Shown here: positions 8,521-64,000 of the stretch, piece after piece | Layout of the letters: every line of letters begins with the position of its first letter | Position numbering within the stretch: position 1 is the first letter of the stretch | Assembly: GCA_946499505.1 (NCBI GenBank) | Contig: CAMMSL010000007.1 | Location: forward strand, 44,223 to 108,222 | Reading direction: 5' to 3' | Source: an uncultured Lachnoclostridium sp. | GTDB taxonomy: Bacteria; Bacillota; Clostridia; Lachnospirales; Lachnospiraceae | Length of the DNA: 64,000 nt | Position numbers and translations under genes: made by a program | Notes under the pieces: generated by a model | The model's input: only the letters and a program-made list of their open reading frames with translations | Told to the model about the DNA's origin: nothing | Database searches by the model: none

Positions 8521-9090
8521 TTATACTCCCTTTCCGATCACAGATACAACTGTATTGGCGACTCCCGCCAGGAGCATTACCCAAATGGGATTCATCCGGC
8601 ATTTTTTGAGCAGCACCAGACATCCGGCAAATATGAACACCATGATCCAGTTTGTCTTTGACAAAACAACCACTGCATCATTTCCCCAGAACGCCGTAAT
8701 CAGTATCGAAATCCCTGCCGAAGCGATCAGCGCCACCACCGCCGGCCTGAGGGAATTCAGGATTCCCTGCAACATAGCCATATTACGATATTTCAAATAC
8801 AATCTGGCCAGCACTGTCACTATGATACAGGATGGCAGAATACATCCCAGTGTTGCCGCCAGCGCCCCCGGTATTCCTGCAATCTTAATCCCTACAAAGG
8901 TAGCGGAATTGATCGCGATCGGTCCCGGCGTCATCTGGGAGATCGTGATCAGATCTGTAAACTCTTTCATACTCAGCCAGCCATGCTCCGTAACAACCTG
9001 CCCCTGGATCAGAGGCATGGCCGCATATCCTCCTCCGAAACTAAAGAGCCCGATCTGCAGAAAACTTAAAAACAATTTCAGGTATATCAT
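8521..9090 (-). CDS. chromate transporter family protein, second half-size subunit
   Basis: 189 residues, all membrane segments. It shows the family signatures FSFGGGYAAMPLIQ near the N-terminus and TPGPIAINSATFVG near residue 60. Half-size chromate transporters work as pairs; the other half is encoded immediately upstream and overlaps this start by 4 bases (ATGA). Start at 9090 is preferred because AGGAG lies 8 bases upstream and the extra N-terminal codons of longer frames are cysteine-rich and unlike the family. Predicted to move chromate or another anion across the cytoplasmic membrane; the true substrate in this organism is not known. Confidence 0.9.
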   Translation of the reverse strand: MIYLKLFLSFLQIGLFSFGGGYAAMPLIQGQVVTEHGWLSMKEFTDLITISQMTPGPIAINSATFVGIKIAGIPGALAATLGCILPSCIIVTVLARLYLKYRNMAMLQGILNSLRPAVVALIASAGISILITAFWGNDAVVVLSKTNWIMVFIFAGCLVLLKKCRMNPIWVMLLAGVANTVVSVIGKGV

Positions 9091-9653
9091 TTCTTCTCGC
9101 TCCTTTGCTTTGCAACGGTCCTGACAACACCGATCACTGCGCATACAAGGATCACATAAATCACATTGACACCCAAAAAGCATGTGGCAGCAAAGGCGAG
9201 CACCATGATCAAAACGGATACCGGATTTTTCCCATGAATGATTCCGCCTGCCATCTCGAATACCACTGCCGCGATCACAGCTCCCACTCCCGCCTGCATG
9301 CCTTCCAGCATAAGGCTTACAATATAATTACTCTGAAACGCATTATAAAAAAATGATATAAGAGATATAATCACAAAAGGCGGGATGACCGTTGCGATTA
9401 TAGCGGTCAGCGCGCCCGCTATTCCTGCCAGTTTATAGCCGACAACGATAGCCCCGTTTACAGCAATGGCCCCGGGCGAAGACTGTGCGATCGCGATCAG
9501 ATCCAGCATTTCGTCTTCTTCTATCCAGTGATATTCATCTACAAATTTTTTCTTCATCAGCGTGACAATCACATATCCTCCCCCAAAAGTAAAGGCACTC
9601 AGATATAATGTTGAAAAAAAGATCTTCCATAATACCTTCTTCTTAGTCTCCAT
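9087..9653 (-). CDS. chromate transporter family protein, first half-size subunit
   Basis: 188 residues, membrane protein with FTFGGGYVIVTLM and SSPGAIAVNGAIVVGYK, the same two family blocks as its partner at 8521-9090. The two are translationally coupled and probably form a heterodimer. Divergent from a LysR regulator at 9759, which probably controls the pair from the 105-base gap between them. Start at 9653 (METKKK) is supported by GGAGGAAAG upstream. Confidence 0.9.
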   Translation of the reverse strand: METKKKVLWKIFFSTLYLSAFTFGGGYVIVTLMKKKFVDEYHWIEEDEMLDLIAIAQSSPGAIAVNGAIVVGYKLAGIAGALTAIIATVIPPFVIISLISFFYNAFQSNYIVSLMLEGMQAGVGAVIAAVVFEMAGGIIHGKNPVSVLIMVLAFAATCFLGVNVIYVILVCAVIGVVRTVAKQRSEKK

Positions 9654-57965: not shown

Positions 57966-58013
57966 ACCATTGACTTATGTACGAAATCGGACATTTTGGA
58001 GGGAGAGATATAT

Positions 58014-58445
58014 TTGCACTATTTAGAAACCGGACAATATACCTATTTAGCAGAAGAAATCAATGCTTTATACCACGAAGCGGCTGTAAAAACGGGTATT
58101 TCGGACAGTGTTCAAAATATTCTGTATGTACTTTGTGAGAAAGATGGGCAATGTCTGCAAAGCGAAATAAGCAAACTTACAGGAATCAGCCGCCAGACAA
58201 TTAATTCTGCCATTCGCAAATTGGAAAAAGAAGGAATCGTATATCTGAAACAAGGGAAAGGCAGAAATACAATTCTCTGCCTGACTGAAAAGGGAAAGAA
58301 ATTTTCATCAGAAAAAATACTGCCTCTGCACGAGATTGAAAATAAAATCTGGGACGACTGGACGGAGGAGGAACAGCATCAATATCTGAGGCTCACAAAA
58401 AAATATCGTGACGGATTAAAAAAATATCTGGAAGCCATGTTATAA
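58014..58445 (+). CDS. MarR family transcriptional regulator
   Basis: 143 residues, winged helix (about 45-105, QSEISKLTGISRQTINSAIR). TTG 58014 was chosen because GGAGGGAGA ends 6 bases before it; an upstream in-frame TTG lies inside that site. The gene is more AT-rich than its neighbours and is followed by the efflux pump at 58565, so the two are probably an acquired drug-resistance module with local control. Confidence 0.82.
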   Translation: MHYLETGQYTYLAEEINALYHEAAVKTGISDSVQNILYVLCEKDGQCLQSEISKLTGISRQTINSAIRKLEKEGIVYLKQGKGRNTILCLTEKGKKFSSEKILPLHEIENKIWDDWTEEEQHQYLRLTKKYRDGLKKYLEAML

Positions 58446-58475
58446 AAACAAAATCTTATGAAGGGAGGTGGCTTG

Positions 58476-58496
58476 ATGTCGGCAGCAGTACAATAA
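58476..58496 (+). CDS. candidate six-residue leader peptide ahead of the efflux gene
   Basis: ATG TCG GCA GCA GTA CAA TAA, encoding MSAAVQ, preceded by a strong GGGAGGTGG at 6-base spacing, in the 119-base gap between the MarR gene and the MFS gene. Short leaders of this kind can control translation of resistance genes by ribosome stalling; here the role is inferred and the ORF could be chance. Confidence 0.4.
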   Translation: MSAAVQ

Positions 58497-58564
58497 GGGG
58501 ATGATCACATTCGATATTGTCCCCTGTTTGAAAAACTATTTTGAGAATGAGAGGACAATTTGAT

Positions 58565-59788
58565 ATGGAAAAAACACAAAAATGGAAATCGCAGTTTACG
58601 ATCGTTGCATTGGGACAGGCAGTTTCAATGTTAGGAAGTCACGGTGTTCAGTTTGCTCTTATCTGGTGGCTTGCTGAAAAAACATCTTCGCCGTTAATGT
58701 TGGGAATATCGGGGATTGTTGCCTATCTTCCAATGACCTTATTTAGTCCGCTGGCAGGAATTTCAGCTGACCGTTATAACCGAAAATTTATCTCTATTTT
58801 TTCGGATATGACAATGGGGACGGTTGCGCTGATTTACGCAGTATTACTATTCTTTTTTGACCTGCCTGTGTGGACAGTATTTGTTATGCTGTGTGTCCGA
58901 GGGATCGGAAGTACATTCCAGCAGCCGGCAATACAGTCAATTATTCCGCAGCTTGTACCAAAAGATCAGTTAGTAAAAACAAATGGGTGGATGCAGCTTC
59001 TGAATTCAGGCTCATTTTTGCTGGGACCGGTGATCGGTGCGTCTTTGTATGCGATTTTCCCGATGTCAATCGTTTTAATGAGTGATGTGGCCGGGGCAAT
59101 TTTAGCAAGTATTGCGTTAGCAGTCGTTAAAATCCCAAAACTTGAAAAAGCAGAACGGAAAGAACAGCATTTCATAACAGAAATAAAAGAAGGATTGCAA
59201 GTATTCAAAGAAGATAAAAAATTATTTTACATCGTGATTGCAGAGGCGCTCTGTATGTTTTTTTATGCGCCGTTATCCTCCTTTTATCCACTGATGACGA
59301 GCGATTATTTTAAGTTATCGGCAATGTATGGCAGTGCTGTGGAGTTATCTTTTGCAATCGGCATGATGGTCTCCTCCCTTTTATTTTCCAGTGTTCTAAA
59401 GATAAACCGGAAAATCAGAGTTTCTTTTATCGGTTTGTTTGCAATGGGAGTTATGTCGCTGATCTGCGGTATCATACCGCCTGCTTATGTTGGCTGGTTT
59501 TTCTTTGCAGGAAGCTGCATCTGTTTAGGAGCTTCCGGAAATGTCCATACAATTCCGCTGACCGCATATATGCAGGAAACCATATCTCCGGACAGGATGG
59601 GACGTGCATTTTCGGTTCTCACGCTGATTTCATCTGTTACAATGCCAATCGGCTTACTTTTCAGCAGTCCAATAGCAGAAAAAGCAGGTGTAAATGTCTG
59701 GTTCTTCATTTCTGGTCTGTGTATGATTATGCTTACTACTGGTGTTTCAATACGATATGCGGCAAAACGCAGGGACCTTTCTGTATAA
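58565..59788 (+). CDS. MFS efflux transporter, macrolide-efflux (Mef)-like MFS_3 family
   Basis: 407 residues, 12 membrane helices. The start KWKSQFTIVALGQAVSMLGSHGVQFALIWWLAEKT and the SADRYNRKFISIFSDM loop are characteristic of the MFS_3/Mef branch. Likely exports macrolides or related drugs. ATG 58565 was chosen because AGAGGA lies 9 bases upstream. AT-rich third positions set it apart from the surrounding genes. Confidence 0.85.
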   Translation: MEKTQKWKSQFTIVALGQAVSMLGSHGVQFALIWWLAEKTSSPLMLGISGIVAYLPMTLFSPLAGISADRYNRKFISIFSDMTMGTVALIYAVLLFFFDLPVWTVFVMLCVRGIGSTFQQPAIQSIIPQLVPKDQLVKTNGWMQLLNSGSFLLGPVIGASLYAIFPMSIVLMSDVAGAILASIALAVVKIPKLEKAERKEQHFITEIKEGLQVFKEDKKLFYIVIAEALCMFFYAPLSSFYPLMTSDYFKLSAMYGSAVELSFAIGMMVSSLLFSSVLKINRKIRVSFIGLFAMGVMSLICGIIPPAYVGWFFFAGSCICLGASGNVHTIPLTAYMQETISPDRMGRAFSVLTLISSVTMPIGLLFSSPIAEKAGVNVWFFISGLCMIMLTTGVSIRYAAKRRDLSV

Positions 59789-59871: not shown

Positions 59872-60891
59872 TTATACTTCTTCGGCCCTGCTCTTTCTAT
59901 ATCTTCTCCACACAAGAGCTCCAAGGCCGATCAGGATCACACCCACTGCCACATCTGCACCGATCACTGCTTTCTGCCATACAGGAAGTCCGGCATCCAC
60001 ACCGTCTTCCTCATACATCCAGCTGTTCACCACTGTGTACATAACATTCTTGCACGCCTGTCTCATATATTTAACCGAAGAAGCCGCATCCGGATTCTGT
60101 ACTACATTCGGGCCGCCGGCATACGTGGAGAGCATTGCGTCCACGCCGTTTGCAAGGGCTGCATCTGCGTTCATAAATCCGTGTCCGTTATTTCTGAAGA
60201 AGTCAGTCAGACAGAATCCTTCAAATCCCCACTCGCCGCGGAGCACGTTGTTGAGAAGATTACTATTCTCACCGGACCACTTAATACCGATAAAACTCCA
60301 TGATACCATGACTGCGTGTGCATCACCGTCTTTCACGGATATCTCAAATGGTTTCAGATAGATTTCACGCATTGCCTGCTCGTTGGACCATACGCATACC
60401 ATCTTAGCGTTCATCTCATACATTGCAAAATGCTTGATGTATGCGTATACACCCTGACTTGCTGCACCCTTTACTGTTGCTGAGGGAATGTAACCGGCCA
60501 GCGTCCCATCCTCTGAGAAATACTCATAGTTTCTTGCCCCGAATGGAGTACGATGGGTATTCATCCCCGGCGCATACCATCCGGCAATATTCATCTCGCG
60601 GCACATCTTTCCCATCATCTCTCCGTACTGCTGTGCAAGATCCTGGTTCCATGTGCAGGCGATCATCACTTCTACCGGGAATCCGATGGAACCCGCGCCG
60701 GTGAAGTTGTTGTTGATTGCCGCCGGACCGTCCGCGTCTACTGTTGCGACCTTCCCGACAGATTCCATGGCCGGGGTCTGGTATCCGGACAGGGCGATCA
60801 TATTAGTCATATCATCTATGGTAAGCTCGTCCAGCAGATCATCCCACCGCTCGTCATCATAGTCCGCTCCACGCAGTTCATTAAGCCTCCG
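59872..60891 (-). pseudogene. GH3 beta-glucosidase-like gene, N-terminally truncated
   Basis: In-frame sequence from about 60891 (RRLNELRGADYDDERWDDLL) through DELTIDDMTNMIALSGYQTP reads as the N-terminal GH3 barrel region, with DGPAAIN, VKGAASQGVYAYIKHFAMYE and the catalytic-Asp region GFEGFCLTDF, then a C-terminal membrane anchor (AVIGADVAVGVILIGLGALVW) and basic tail. The upstream part of a much longer gene (usually about 800-950 residues) is missing: the frame runs back only to a TGA, without a ribosome binding site, and meets a truncated regulator gene at 60893. An ATG at 60810 could give 312 residues but would lack the fold's first part. Confidence 0.75.
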
Positions 60892-60892
60892 G

Positions 60893-61324
60893 ATGGCTGA
60901 GGATAGCTGTCAGGATCCAAATGCAGACGCGCTGCAGATTCTGAATCTCCTTGCCGGTGTACAGCCGGAACATTTAAAGGAAAATGAATCCCTGCTTCCC
61001 GTCTGCCATAGAGTTGCGCAGCTTCCAAAGTATCAGGTAATCTTTCACGATGAAACAATCTCTAATTATGTGGTAAACCGAATCTTCCAGAGTCAGAAGC
61101 AGAAACTGATTCCGGTCTATATGGATGCCTGCGGTCTTTCAAAAAAAGAGGCAGAAATGCTTACCCTTTTTGTGATCACAGGAACATATAATGTCAACAA
61201 AGCGCTAAACTGGAACAGCAACTCCGTCTGGTACAACATTCATTCCATACTGTTCAGGTTCATGTCCGGCGGCTACGAAAGACTCAGGAAACACGATACT
61301 AAAAGCGAGACACAAAGTATATGA
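60893..61324 (+). pseudogene. TetR-like regulator, DNA-binding part missing
   Basis: 143 residues resembling the ligand-binding half of a TetR regulator (LLPVCHRVAQLPKYQVIFHD, then CGLSKKEAEMLTLFVITGTYNVNKALNW). No helix-turn-helix is present; the 5' part appears to have been deleted together with the 5' end of the facing GH3 gene. The ATG at 60893 lacks a ribosome binding site. Confidence 0.6.
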
Positions 61325-61378: not shown

Positions 61379-61414
61379 CTCAGGCAAATAGCTAAAACAG
61401 CTATTGTGCCTGAG
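61379..61414. terminator. hairpin between TetR-like remnant and radical-SAM genes
   Basis: CTCAGGCA ... TGCCTGAG outer stem with inner ATAGCT/AGCTAT; followed by GATTTTAAT on the plus strand. Confidence 0.7.
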
Positions 61415-61438: not shown

Positions 61439-62359
61439 TTACAGTTCCTTTTGCCGTTTCCCGGTATTCTCCGATCCTCTGACCTCTTCATGATAGAAAT
61501 AGTCGACAATTACGGGATGCCCCTGTTCCGCGCGTCCGTAAGGCAGCTCATTGTCTACAAACGGACAATTATTGTTTCTTGCCAGCCGTGTTGCTTTCTC
61601 TTCAAGCATCTGGAAATAGCTGCGGTCTTTTTTGTTATAGATGGCATCATAAAGGGGTACAAGATCCGGATATTTTTCTTGAATGTAATCCATAATATCT
61701 TTTTTAAACCCGCCCCGCAGGTTCAGATTTTCCAGCCACACCAGATCACACTGATTCCTGACTCTTTCAAAGATTGCTTCAAAATCTGTAATGCCGGGAA
61801 ATACAGGAGAAATGAAACAGACGGTTCGTATTCCGGCATCGTAGACCTTTTTCATCGCCGCGAGCCGTCGTTCTATGCTGACTGCCTGATCCATATCCGC
61901 CCGGAACTGCTCATCCAGTGTATTTATAGACCAGGATACTGTAACTTTTCCCATTGTTTTCAGCAGCTCCAGATCCCGGACGACCAGATCCGATTTGGTA
62001 CAGATAAGGATCTCTGCGCCGCTTCCTTTCAGCTGCTCCAGAATCCGACGGGTATTACCGAACTGCTCTTCCTGTGGATTGTATCCGTCGGTTACCGAAC
62101 CGATAACCACTCTCTGACCTCTGTATTTCCATGGATTTTTGATCGCCGGCCAGCGTTTCACATCAAGGAAAGTGCCCCACTGCTCAGTATGACCTGTAAA
62201 CCGCTTCATAAATGAGGCATAGCAGTATTTACAGCCATGGGTACATCCCACATACGGATTTACGGAATATCCTCCTACCGGAAGGGTGGATTTTGTCATA
62301 ATATTCTTTGTCTCCACTTCCCGGATCAGAATACTGCTTTCCTTTACTTGCTCTTCCAT
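61439..62359 (-). CDS. radical SAM mobile pair protein B (SPL-like radical SAM)
   Basis: 306 residues. Radical-SAM cysteines in VGCTHGCKYCYASF (CxxxCxxC, about 38-48), then a TIM-barrel resembling spore-photoproduct-lyase-type proteins (VIGSVTDGYNPQEEQ, LICTKSDLVVRDLELL). The companion upstream is a second radical-SAM protein overlapping it by 16 bases, and a MarR regulator leads the operon. This triad matches the family annotated as radical SAM mobile pair proteins A and B. The reaction is unknown. Confidence 0.85.
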   Translation of the reverse strand: MEEQVKESSILIREVETKNIMTKSTLPVGGYSVNPYVGCTHGCKYCYASFMKRFTGHTEQWGTFLDVKRWPAIKNPWKYRGQRVVIGSVTDGYNPQEEQFGNTRRILEQLKGSGAEILICTKSDLVVRDLELLKTMGKVTVSWSINTLDEQFRADMDQAVSIERRLAAMKKVYDAGIRTVCFISPVFPGITDFEAIFERVRNQCDLVWLENLNLRGGFKKDIMDYIQEKYPDLVPLYDAIYNKKDRSYFQMLEEKATRLARNNNCPFVDNELPYGRAEQGHPVIVDYFYHEEVRGSENTGKRQKEL

Positions 62360-63036
62360 GCTTTCTGCTCCTCCAAAACATCATAAAATACCTGCGGCAG
62401 TTCCTGGACCATCTGCTCTTCTCCCATGACAGGAAGAAGGTCTTCCTTCATAAACACAGGAATGCCGCGGCTATGGGCCTGATCCGTCAGATTCCACACC
62501 CATTCCGTCTTTGACTCTGATTTTCCCTTCCGGCGTCCGGTTTCCGTACCGACCACGATCCACTCAATCCCGGTAAAGTCCACTTCTCCGATGTTGTCAA
62601 ACATAGGTTCAAAGCTGACCTGATAGTGTTTTGCCCTGATATGCTCACGCATCGCCTTGATTCTCCCCTTCTCCTTCGCAGACGTCACCGTTACTCCGAA
62701 CCAGACATTATCAAGCTCTGTGGAAAACTGAATCTTCTCCGGCCGTTTGGTGAGAAAGATATACTGATGCTGAGGATTCCGTGCGATTCTGGCAAACACT
62801 TCTTCTCTCCATTCCGGGTCCCAGTCTGAAAAATCGCTCATCCCTGTAAGCAGCAGATTCTGTGGACGTTTTCTGTCCATCAGTTTCAGTTTTCCGGGAA
62901 AATATTCCGGTCTGGAAAAATCCTCTGTCATATGAAACCGACGGACATTATTTCTCGCATAACAGTAACTGCACCCAATGGTACAGCCGATCACAAGATT
63001 CATATTCTGGATCTGGTCTTTAATACAAACAGCCAT
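62344..63036 (-). CDS. radical SAM mobile pair protein A (DUF5131-like)
   Basis: 230 residues. Radical-SAM cysteines in IGCTIGCSYCYAR (about 17-29), followed by LLTGMSDFSDWDPEW, FLTKRPEKI, VWFGVTVTSAKEKGR and WIVVGTETGRRKG, as in the phage Gp37/Gp68-like DUF5131 radical-SAM family. Cotranslated with protein B (16-base overlap). It probably forms a two-enzyme system; the substrate is not known. Confidence 0.85.
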   Translation of the reverse strand: MAVCIKDQIQNMNLVIGCTIGCSYCYARNNVRRFHMTEDFSRPEYFPGKLKLMDRKRPQNLLLTGMSDFSDWDPEWREEVFARIARNPQHQYIFLTKRPEKIQFSTELDNVWFGVTVTSAKEKGRIKAMREHIRAKHYQVSFEPMFDNIGEVDFTGIEWIVVGTETGRRKGKSESKTEWVWNLTDQAHSRGIPVFMKEDLLPVMGEEQMVQELPQVFYDVLEEQKAWKSK

Positions 63037-63055
63037 ATTGATTCACTCCATTACA

Positions 63056-63487
63056 CTATAATCGCTCTTCAACATTATGAAAAATCCGCTGCAGATATTT
63101 TTCGCACTGATCGATTTCTTCTTCGCTGAATCCCTTATAATATATATTTTCTATTTCTTCGGTCACTTCGTTATAATCCTTTTCCAGAGATCTGGCGTTA
63201 TCTGTCAGGAAAATCAGAACCTTTCTCCTGTCTTTATCCCCGCGGTCTCTGTAAATCAATCCTGCTGCTTCCATCCGGTCCAGCATTCCGGTCAGCGAAG
63301 TCACTGCCAGACCTGACCGTCTGGAAAGTTCTCTGATCGGAATACCGTCCTCCTGCCACAAAATATATAAAAGACTCCCCTGCGACCCGTTAAAGGCATC
63401 GATATTCTTCTCGGAAAGAATGTGCTCAAACAATCTTCCACCTATATGTTTAATTCTTGAAATCAAGAAACCGGCTTGTCTACTCAT
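63056..63487 (-). CDS. MarR family regulator of the radical-SAM pair
   Basis: 143 residues, winged helix (about 45-105, IPIRELSRRSGLAVTSLTGM and the wing DRGDKDRRKVLIFLT). First gene of the three-gene operon, 19 bases before protein A. Its own promoter carries the palindrome TACTATATAGTA (see 63591-63628), so it most likely represses the operon. Confidence 0.88.
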   Translation of the reverse strand: MSRQAGFLISRIKHIGGRLFEHILSEKNIDAFNGSQGSLLYILWQEDGIPIRELSRRSGLAVTSLTGMLDRMEAAGLIYRDRGDKDRRKVLIFLTDNARSLEKDYNEVTEEIENIYYKGFSEEEIDQCEKYLQRIFHNVEERL

Positions 63488-63590
63488 AAATCGCTACAAT
63501 GGGCAGCCATGACATATATCATAGCTGCCCGCCCTTTCTATAAATTAATTTTTCTGCGCTTTTGCAATTTCCCTTTCAAGCACATTTGTT

Positions 63591-63628
63591 CTATATAGGA
63601 TAATACTATATAGTAATATTCATGTCAA
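63591..63628 (-). promoter_or_regulatory. promoter and MarR operator of the radical-SAM operon
   Basis: Minus strand: -35 TTGACA (63623-63628), 17-base spacer, -10 TATTAT (63600-63605). The palindrome TACTATATAGTA (63604-63615) fills the spacer next to the -10 and a second CTATATAG lies at 63591-63598, near the transcription start. Confidence 0.7.
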
Positions 63629-63781
63629 TAATATTTTATAATTAATCGCTCACTTCTATCAGAAAATCTCAGCCCGCATGCCGTCCAGACATACAGCTAC
63701 ACGCACCGAGTCATCTTTCAGCCAGGTACACTTGGCTGGAGCAATTCTCCTTTTAACACACTCTCTGCAAAAGGAGCAAGG

Positions 63782-63953
63782 TCAGCTCATAAACTGTTGC
63801 AGCGCATCCTGCTGATCTGCAAAATCTTTCATCCCCAGATCATACAGTTTTCGCTCTGTCTCTTCATCCATAGAATAAGTTCCCACTTTAATCGGCTCAC
63901 TGGGCGCAAAGACAAACGCCTTTCCTTCCTTTTCCAGATCGAATACTTCTTTC
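63782..63953 (-). pseudogene. C-terminal remnant of a patatin-like phospholipase
   Basis: 57 codons from just after a TAG to TGA at 63782-63784: KEVFDLEKEGKAFVFAPSEP then KLYDLGMKDFADQQDALQQF. The pattern (E-G-K-A-F-V-F-A-P-S-x-P, then Y-D-L-G) resembles the C-terminal end of Clostridial patatin-like phospholipases. The catalytic part is absent. Confidence 0.5.
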
Positions 63954-64000
63954 TACTACAATATATTTATGGTTAATACCCCTTACAGCCAGTAAGGAAT

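Follow-up and report, generated by a model that had tools for sequence, protein, structure and literature searches.

The 64-kb window analysed here (64,000 nucleotides from an uncultured Lachnoclostridium sp., forming the end of contig C7 in a genome of 3.08 Mb, further referred to as G000) contains an operon of two radical S-adenosylmethionine (SAM) enzymes, the radical SAM mobile pair proteins A and B, together with a regulator of the MarR family. In this operon, the gut bacterium carries a portable, self-regulated enzyme pair, which is spread over gut bacteria unrelated to each other and in many of these apparently has the form of a neat gene cassette. The protein families were already named; new, as far as the searches go, are the operator, the missing flavin-reductase gene, the interchangeable regulators, the presence of B without A and, above all, the cassette boundaries. 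In the open-access literature searched there was no paper on the radical SAM mobile pair, its TIGR families, or DUF5131 in connection with radical SAM; papers on the TcmP/three-Cys partner yielded table entries only, and no Firmicutes cassette system other than integrons was met among the titles and beginnings of abstracts searched.

The operon and its predicted operator

Three open reading frames (ORFs) of the minus strand lie behind one promoter in the order MarR, A, B. The features of the operon, with their positions in the window, are the following:

61439..62359, minus strand: radical SAM mobile pair protein B, 306 aa; TIGR04470 593 bits, cut-off 410
62344..63036, minus strand: radical SAM mobile pair protein A, DUF5131, 230 aa; TIGR04471 419 bits, cut-off 355
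63056..63487, minus strand: MarR family regulator of the pair, 143 aa; TIGR04472 203 bits, cut-off 240
63566..63572, no strand: scar where the flavin-reductase gene of locus L031 (479 bp, 8988-9466; Flavin_Reduct PF01613) is absent and the promoter kept; two L031 blastn segments overlap by 7 bp
63591..63598, no strand: predicted operator 2, core CTATATAG, just past the -10 element
63600..63628, minus strand: promoter TTGACA-17-TATTAT, 11/12 consensus bases
63604..63615, no strand: predicted operator 1, TACTATATAGTA, over the spacer and the -10 element; core conserved in homologous upstreams

The operon proposed earlier by a sequence-only reading, with two radical SAM enzymes overlapping by 16 bases behind a MarR gene, is real by its ORFs and NCBIfam matches: genes A and B share the positions 62344-62359, B passes the curated cut-off of rSAM_mob_pairB (TIGR04470) and A that of rSAM_mob_pairA (TIGR04471), and A is also a member of Pfam DUF5131 (PF07505; 118 bits, cut-off 28.9). 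A profile comparison of the two enzymes shows their homology (hhalign probability 99, E 8e-18); the search of the genome with A gave, besides A itself, just one partial match of 29% on contig C8, and Rfam had zero matches across 56-64 kb of the window. The cluster motif CxxxCxxC of B (C39/C43/C46) is kept in 83/83 aligned homologues and the cluster cysteines of A (C18/C22/C25) in 90/90, with many near-copies in both sets. Accordingly, neither enzyme lacks the cluster motif, a lack of cluster binding in one of them having been named as a sign against the proposal; both keep the motif of the radical SAM superfamily and are predicted to bind a [4Fe-4S] cluster and to cleave SAM.

The surroundings of the pair were compared in the loci (L-numbers) of the best 80 of 180 relatives of A. 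The MarR gene stands beside the pair in 61 of these 80 loci and is absent in 19, with L092 starting too close to A to judge. The window MarR has 90% identity to the L031 copy and agrees with the family TIGR04472, against which the MarR of L045 scores 290, in position and in the operator core.

The promoter spacer had been read as a palindrome, of which the part that stands is that a palindrome, TACTATATAGTA, lies at the promoter; however, it covers the last 10 bases of the spacer and the first 2 of the -10 element. Promoter-like sites number 6 in the region, which is not above shuffled sequence (4.8 +/- 2.1). Within the 64 kb of the window, the 8-base core CTATATAG has two copies only, namely those at 63591 and at 63606 in this promoter. 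The comparison set comprised the 120 bases before the homologous MarR genes (n=61 without the window and L031; excluded were one locus of insufficient length and two in which the start of MarR was unmatched, and the L005/L050 locus was counted twice). The exact core was found in 58/61 of these upstreams, and two exact cores, with a spacing of 25-27 bp as compared with 15 bp in the window, in 50/61. It is absent from 11 listed loci without MarR (of 19 such loci) and amounts to 110 occurrences in all 80 loci, or 1.26 Mb. TTGACA followed by CTATAT within the spacer was present in 57/63 upstreams; in 57/63, too, another core was joined to AGGAG close to the start of MarR. Many of these loci are near-copies; grouping at 70% identity left 11 groups, and at least one exact core was kept by 9/11 group representatives, the others being L053, with no exact core and two with one mismatch, and L031, with the core farther upstream. 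In L031, the same operator-promoter precedes the flavin-reductase gene, itself located before MarR-A-B, and it is to the promoter of this gene that the window promoter corresponds. A dedicated MarR with a palindromic operator, as claimed earlier, is thus supported by the conservation of the core, the regulator itself being expected to bind there. The operator core may serve as a direct handle on the system, since it predicts the promoter to be used in an inducer screen.

The regulators of the pair are interchangeable. The flavin-reductase gene adjoins A or MarR-A in 9 mapped loci, 8 of these with an HxlR cluster; in L029 and L030, A is immediately preceded by the patatin gene, an Rrf2 gene being close by; and the Bacteroidales plasmids, many of about 98 kb, combine the pair with AraC and an enzyme of the metallo-beta-lactamase (MBL) fold. 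The comparison of gene orders shows A-B behind at least four different regulatory arrangements. On the Bacteroides fragilis plasmid NZ_CP069564.1 (L109:3982-6295), the MBL-fold hydrolase, A and B are adjacent on one strand, beside AraC genes, and plasmids similar to it, of about 98 kb, occur in several Bacteroides and Parabacteroides species; the Bacteroides plasmid examined was typed as non-mobilizable, yet annotated mobilization genes are present. Near the triad, L087:6713-8632 and the cluster c31 (L063, L090, L104) encode what we take to be a protein like those of ribosomal-protection tetracycline resistance.

Spread of the pair and its cassette form

The distribution was assessed in a genus sample of 37 genomes (G000-G036), including [Ruminococcus] torques (L050, G034), [Ruminococcus] faecis (L051, G007) and Candidatus Mediterraneibacter vanvlietii (L029, G025), and in an order sample of 245 genomes. 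A was above the cut-off in 6/37 genus genomes, so that the pair is not fixed in the whole genus; such fixation had been named as a sign against the proposal. In the order, A was above the cut-off in 12/245 genomes and B in 18/245, including all 12 genomes with A. The six genomes having B without A above the cut-off were G113, G133, G149, G284 and G312, and G169, in which A is broken; the second copy of G283 (L311) has B with only an A fragment beside it. This suggests that B can function alone.

In the tree of 80 A-B pairs, where 40/77 inner branches are weak, Lachnospiraceae show the scatter expected from shuffling (19 changes vs a mean of 17.8), Oscillospiraceae form clusters (8 changes vs 13.5 shuffled), and the rows of Spirochaetota, Actinomycetota and Chloroflexota, in part metagenome-assembled genomes, are placed among Bacillota. 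Between G000 and G025, the genes A and B differ at 16/215 fourfold sites, as against 75/413 for Rrf2, SIR2-like and major facilitator superfamily (MFS) genes (p 2e-4 vs A-B) and 120/287 for patatin, GH3 and TetR genes. The mobility claimed in the sequence-only reading is thus borne out by the patchy presence in the genus, the scattered tree and the lower divergence of A-B than of its neighbours, and the exchange of A-B between distant hosts can be regarded as shown, as far as sequence comparison allows. The block of 97% identity between G000 and G025 starts 2 bases before A and stops in codon 303 of B; being limited to A-B, it suggests that here both enzymes moved without the regulator, unless G025 lost its MarR, and the lack of MarR beside A-B in G025 may indeed reflect a loss there rather than a transfer of A-B alone.

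The ends of the 2.1-kb mobile unit were sought in alignments at least 90% identical over it, in which the homology ends about 520-560 bases before A and no more than about 25 bases from the end of B. The left edge fell between -580 and -451 from the A start in 937/961 alignments, and the right edge between 1510 and 1629 in 921/961. Both ends of the unit bear one imperfect direct repeat, AATTCCAGTTTG, followed at the left end by GGAGAATTGA on the inner side. This site was found at 26/55 left ends (loci with the promoter found) and the shared right end at 38/78, while 26 loci have the site on both sides, their flanks comprising 22 different sequences on the left and 24 on the right; the column conservation drops from about 0.9 to 0.3-0.65 just outside it.

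The same site separates other genes, too, with 106 sites at the chosen score in 74 loci vs 6 in shuffled sequence. The intervals between sites, 42 in number, fall into 28 families, four of which occur in at least two loci, and the cargo, as judged by ten proteins scanned, includes HxlR, GNAT (two), NUDIX, RibD_C, FMN_red, alpha/beta hydrolase, DUF1349, DUF1706 and one matchless protein. Where the HxlR cassette ends, the radical SAM unit follows directly in L045, L064, L094 and L104, and other DNA in L051, L058, L070, L088, L091, L097, L098 and L315, as well as, with an altered end, in L310. Neighbouring sites lie on one strand in 42/47 cases (5 opposite), the longest ORF is on the site strand in 23/28 cassette families, and an ORF stop lies no more than 20 bases upstream of the site, often inside it, in 47/90 cases (52%) vs 12% of 2000 random places. 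The genus scan gave 32 matches of the site pattern vs 0 for the backward pattern, 16/32 coming from G007, G027 and G034, which bear the pair. Co-oriented cassette arrays of gut Firmicutes can be seen in L051:7418-15626, L050:7296-14840, L088:2407-7404, L098:11642-13824 and others; the E. eligens plasmid was considered as a long array and rejected by eye, with site-like sequences only beside the radical SAM cassette and a weaker one before the preceding gene.

As to the recombinase, the integron integrase (TIGR02249) was above the cut-off in 0/14 genomes, weaker tyrosine-recombinase matches were present in all 14 genomes and likewise in control genomes, and the cluster which we assume to be of Tn916-type integrases was found in 8 loci; none is constant across loci.

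From these data, we lean, with modest confidence, to the reading that the pair with its MarR is, in gut Firmicutes, a cargo of an undescribed cassette system, in which single-gene or operon cassettes would be exchanged at a site of about 20-40 bp (core AATTCCAGTTTG, inverted arms, the stop codon often inside) by a recombinase other than IntI, and that the window copy belongs to another lineage, moving without cassette ends. Several points weigh against the cassette system. The window copy of the pair has no cassette site, no recombinase could be assigned to the cassettes, and the genus scan found the site pattern absent from the pair-bearing G000, the window genome, G005 and G025. Some loci have a second boundary type, AATCGGAATTT. 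Besides, the site matrix was trained on the loci where the sites were counted, these loci having been chosen for holding A; the genus scan with its backward-read control and the cassettes other than the radical SAM one are more independent checks. The second boundary type has its left edge near AATCGGAATTTAC, e.g. in L047, L055, L056, L097, L098 and L104, and its right edge, GAAATCGTTAA, in L047, L097, L098 and L104. Should the cassette site prove real, gut Firmicutes would possess an integron-like system of exchanging genes, which could have been missed for want of IntI and of an obvious attC, and the site motif lets the cassette content be listed.

Possible function of the pair

The pair is kept at high identity across gut phyla with a switch of its own and little else shared, and must therefore serve many anaerobes. 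We tentatively propose an inducible portable stress operon under MarR control, in which A and B would reverse a chemical modification, likely of a nucleotide or nucleic acid. MarR would repress the operon until bound or oxidised by a chemical accompanying the stress; A and B, reduced by the host flavodoxin or a flavin-reductase system, would cleave SAM, and the radical would undo the modification on a target that is most likely a nucleotide or nucleic acid common to every host. Such a host-universal target would explain how the pair can work in many hosts without a fixed transporter or a third enzyme. B may be the core enzyme, because the order sample has B without A and never A without B.

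The sequence-only reading had seen in the DUF5131 and spore photoproduct lyase-like halves a hint at nucleic acid repair. Its first half holds, A being DUF5131; however, B is a distant relative of the lyase (profile match to spore photoproduct lyase structures, E 1.3e-4) without the donor cysteine, and repair is kept as a hypothesis only. Weak profile hits in PDB, which for A were to an NTF2-related structure (E 0.013) and for B to bile-acid receptors (E from 0.038 upwards), were taken as chance.

A number of observations count against this proposal. At the position of what we take to be the hydrogen-donor cysteine of spore photoproduct lyase (Cys140), B has Ser in 79/83 and Thr in 4/83 homologues; A has zero credible relatives in PDB; and the window MarR is below the TIGR04472 cut-off. 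A strict dependence of A on B is opposed by L041 and L100 (2/80 loci), where A has no neighbouring B match, and the wide exchange by the tree of all labels, which is slightly more clustered than shuffled (28 vs 31.4; as low in 12/200). Moreover, the OhrR/HpaR/SlyA/HypR-like regulators, the flavin reductase, the MBL enzyme and the cassette neighbours equally point to small-molecule detoxification, and our commitment to a nucleotide or nucleic-acid module is weak, such detoxification being almost as likely.

According to this alternative, which is possible though doubtful, A-B would chemically alter a toxic compound (an electrophile, quinone, antibiotic or diet-derived substance) sensed by MarR, HxlR, Rrf2 or AraC, with electrons given by a neighbouring flavin or FMN reductase. 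The nearest named relatives of the window and other regulators are OhrR, HpaR, SlyA and HypR, all below cut-offs, the flavin-reductase cluster adjoining the operon in the 9 mapped loci has been identified by a Pfam run on two members, an MBL-fold enzyme is part of the Bacteroides operon, and the cassette neighbours include GNAT, NUDIX, RibD_C, FMN_red and alpha/beta hydrolase. Nevertheless, no transporter or second detoxifying gene is constant, and the interchangeable context genes may mirror the usual content of cassette arrays.

It is unlikely that the pair acts in defence or counter-defence by modifying nucleic acid or nucleotides during phage infection or the competition of elements. This reading draws on the match of A to the PADLOC candidate-defence models PDC-M30B and PDC-M41B (E 1e-30), on 72 phage records with distant relatives of A, 71 of them below 60% identity, and on the SIR2-like and patatin genes neighbouring the pair in the lineage of the window. 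However, PDC-M30 and PDC-M41 require both components, and only the B models were hit, with the partner models unmatched among six proteins scanned; the SIR2-like proteins have no PADLOC match and patatin only one of E 0.0075; and the SIR2-like cluster is found in 13, the patatin cluster in 6 of 85 clustered loci. To our knowledge, regulation by MarR is untypical for defence systems, which counts against this role as well.

The surrounding block and known systems

The flanks of the operon were compared with L029, the locus of the genome G025, taken as a collinear reference. The features outside the operon are the following:

59769..59773, no strand: junction of the MFS gene and the block at GCAGG; homology to the empty site of G076, G003 and G019 ends at 59773
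59872..60888, minus strand: GH3 gene, 3' part, 337/806 codons aligned
60889..60892, no strand: deletion junction; L029 12073 to 14402 (about 2.3 kb) missing, by blastn segments
60893..61324, plus strand: TetR-like gene, 3' part, 141/217 codons aligned; collinear with the intact L029 11644-12297
63662..63780, minus strand: approximate remnant of a TIGR04076-family gene, by tblastn of L031 8595-8912, in two frames
63785..63952, minus strand: patatin-like gene, last 56 codons; codons 1-236 at C52:14074-14778
63956..64000, no strand: contig-end sequence; the last 45 bases of C7 recur at G000:C52:1-45

The window is collinear with L029 except for the approximately 2.3 kb missing at 60889-60892, a deletion that removes the start of the TetR-like gene, whose TetR_N domain in L029 is itself below the Pfam cut-off (21.5 vs 24), and most of the GH3 gene. 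On the other side, the 5' part of the patatin gene on C52 ends 53 bases short of the contig end; as C52:1-45 repeats the final 45 bases of C7, the gene is probably interrupted by a repeat element, at which the assembly broke. C52 also holds the M20 peptidase, the Rrf2 regulator and two SIR2-like genes; as the patatin gene is split between C7 and C52, the order peptidase, Rrf2, two SIR2-like genes, patatin, A-B, TetR, GH3, MFS is very likely equal in G000 and G025. The gene remnants on both sides, which had been taken for marks of an insertion, were therefore rejected as such, one being due to a single 2.3-kb deletion and the other to a gene split over two contigs; the GH3/TetR deletion, as far as the alignment tells, sits beside the operon and does not mark its arrival.

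The empty sites to be looked for in relatives were found for the surrounding block. In the sister species G076, G003 and G019, the MFS region matches the window at 96-98%, and the MFS gene is directly followed by the peptidase, the block being absent. A single TGCAGG is present at the empty site, GCAGG at the window's MFS junction and TGCAGG at the peptidase junction of G025. This pattern is compatible with a gain that duplicated a short target as well as with a loss by deletion between short repeats. An ordinary, vertically inherited chromosomal operon, mobile by name only, is very improbable and already contradicted: G000 and G025 do hold the operon at the same place of the same chromosomal block, and the three block-less species could have lost the block by deletion between two GCAGG copies, but the operon is present in only 6/37 genus and 12/245 order genomes, its tree is scattered, plasmid copies exist, and A-B is less diverged than its neighbours.

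Some further observations concern the neighbouring genes. Adjacent SIR2-like gene pairs stand by Rrf2 and patatin near A-B in L029:6506-8323, L031:5362-7124 and G000:C52:12168-13994; the label comes solely from a weak, below cut-off NCBIfam match of one such protein to NAD-dependent deacylase, and the L031 protein scanned had zero Pfam matches. At 57996-59788 of the window, a MarR-type regulator stands before an MFS efflux gene with distant similarity to Mef(A) (301 bits against a cut-off of 675), and the part 58400-59773 is 96-98% identical in the three sister species. An inverted repeat, CTCAGGCA...TGCCTGAG, lies at 61379-61414, in the gap where B and the TetR fragment converge, and was not among the results of the terminator scan.

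Among the known systems, the operon corresponds to that of NCBIfam TIGR04470/TIGR04471/TIGR04472 in the A and B families and in gene order, whereas its MarR is below the family cut-off. B is distantly alike to spore photoproduct lyase (PDB 4fhc-4fhg, 4rh0) over the SAM domain and in the cluster motif, but its assignment as such a lyase was rejected because of Ser/Thr at the donor cysteine position in 83/83, and its TIGR04070 score is 19.9 vs the cut-off of 400. The next-best radical SAM families for B are those of PA0069 and Rv2578c (134 and 106 bits), far below their cut-offs of 360 and 430.

The cassette form resembles integrons and clusters of attC sites lacking integrases (CALINs; PMC8618304) by mostly one-gene cassettes in one orientation with a shared boundary site. 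However, a strict integron was rejected for it, since 14/14 genomes have no IntI above the cut-off. With the stop no more than 20 bases from 47/90 sites, often inside them, there is little room for a long attC hairpin behind these genes, and the shortness of the site argues against a folded attC. The Bacteroidales rAID arrays (PMC12247911) have a predicted tyrosine recombinase and orphan immunity genes, with co-oriented short genes and conserved intergenic motifs. The cassettes in the relatives of the window operon are like them in being co-oriented short genes with a conserved intergenic motif in gut bacteria, and differ by having no dedicated recombinase assigned and by a cargo which, in the ten proteins scanned, is mostly of enzymes and a regulator instead of orphan immunity genes.

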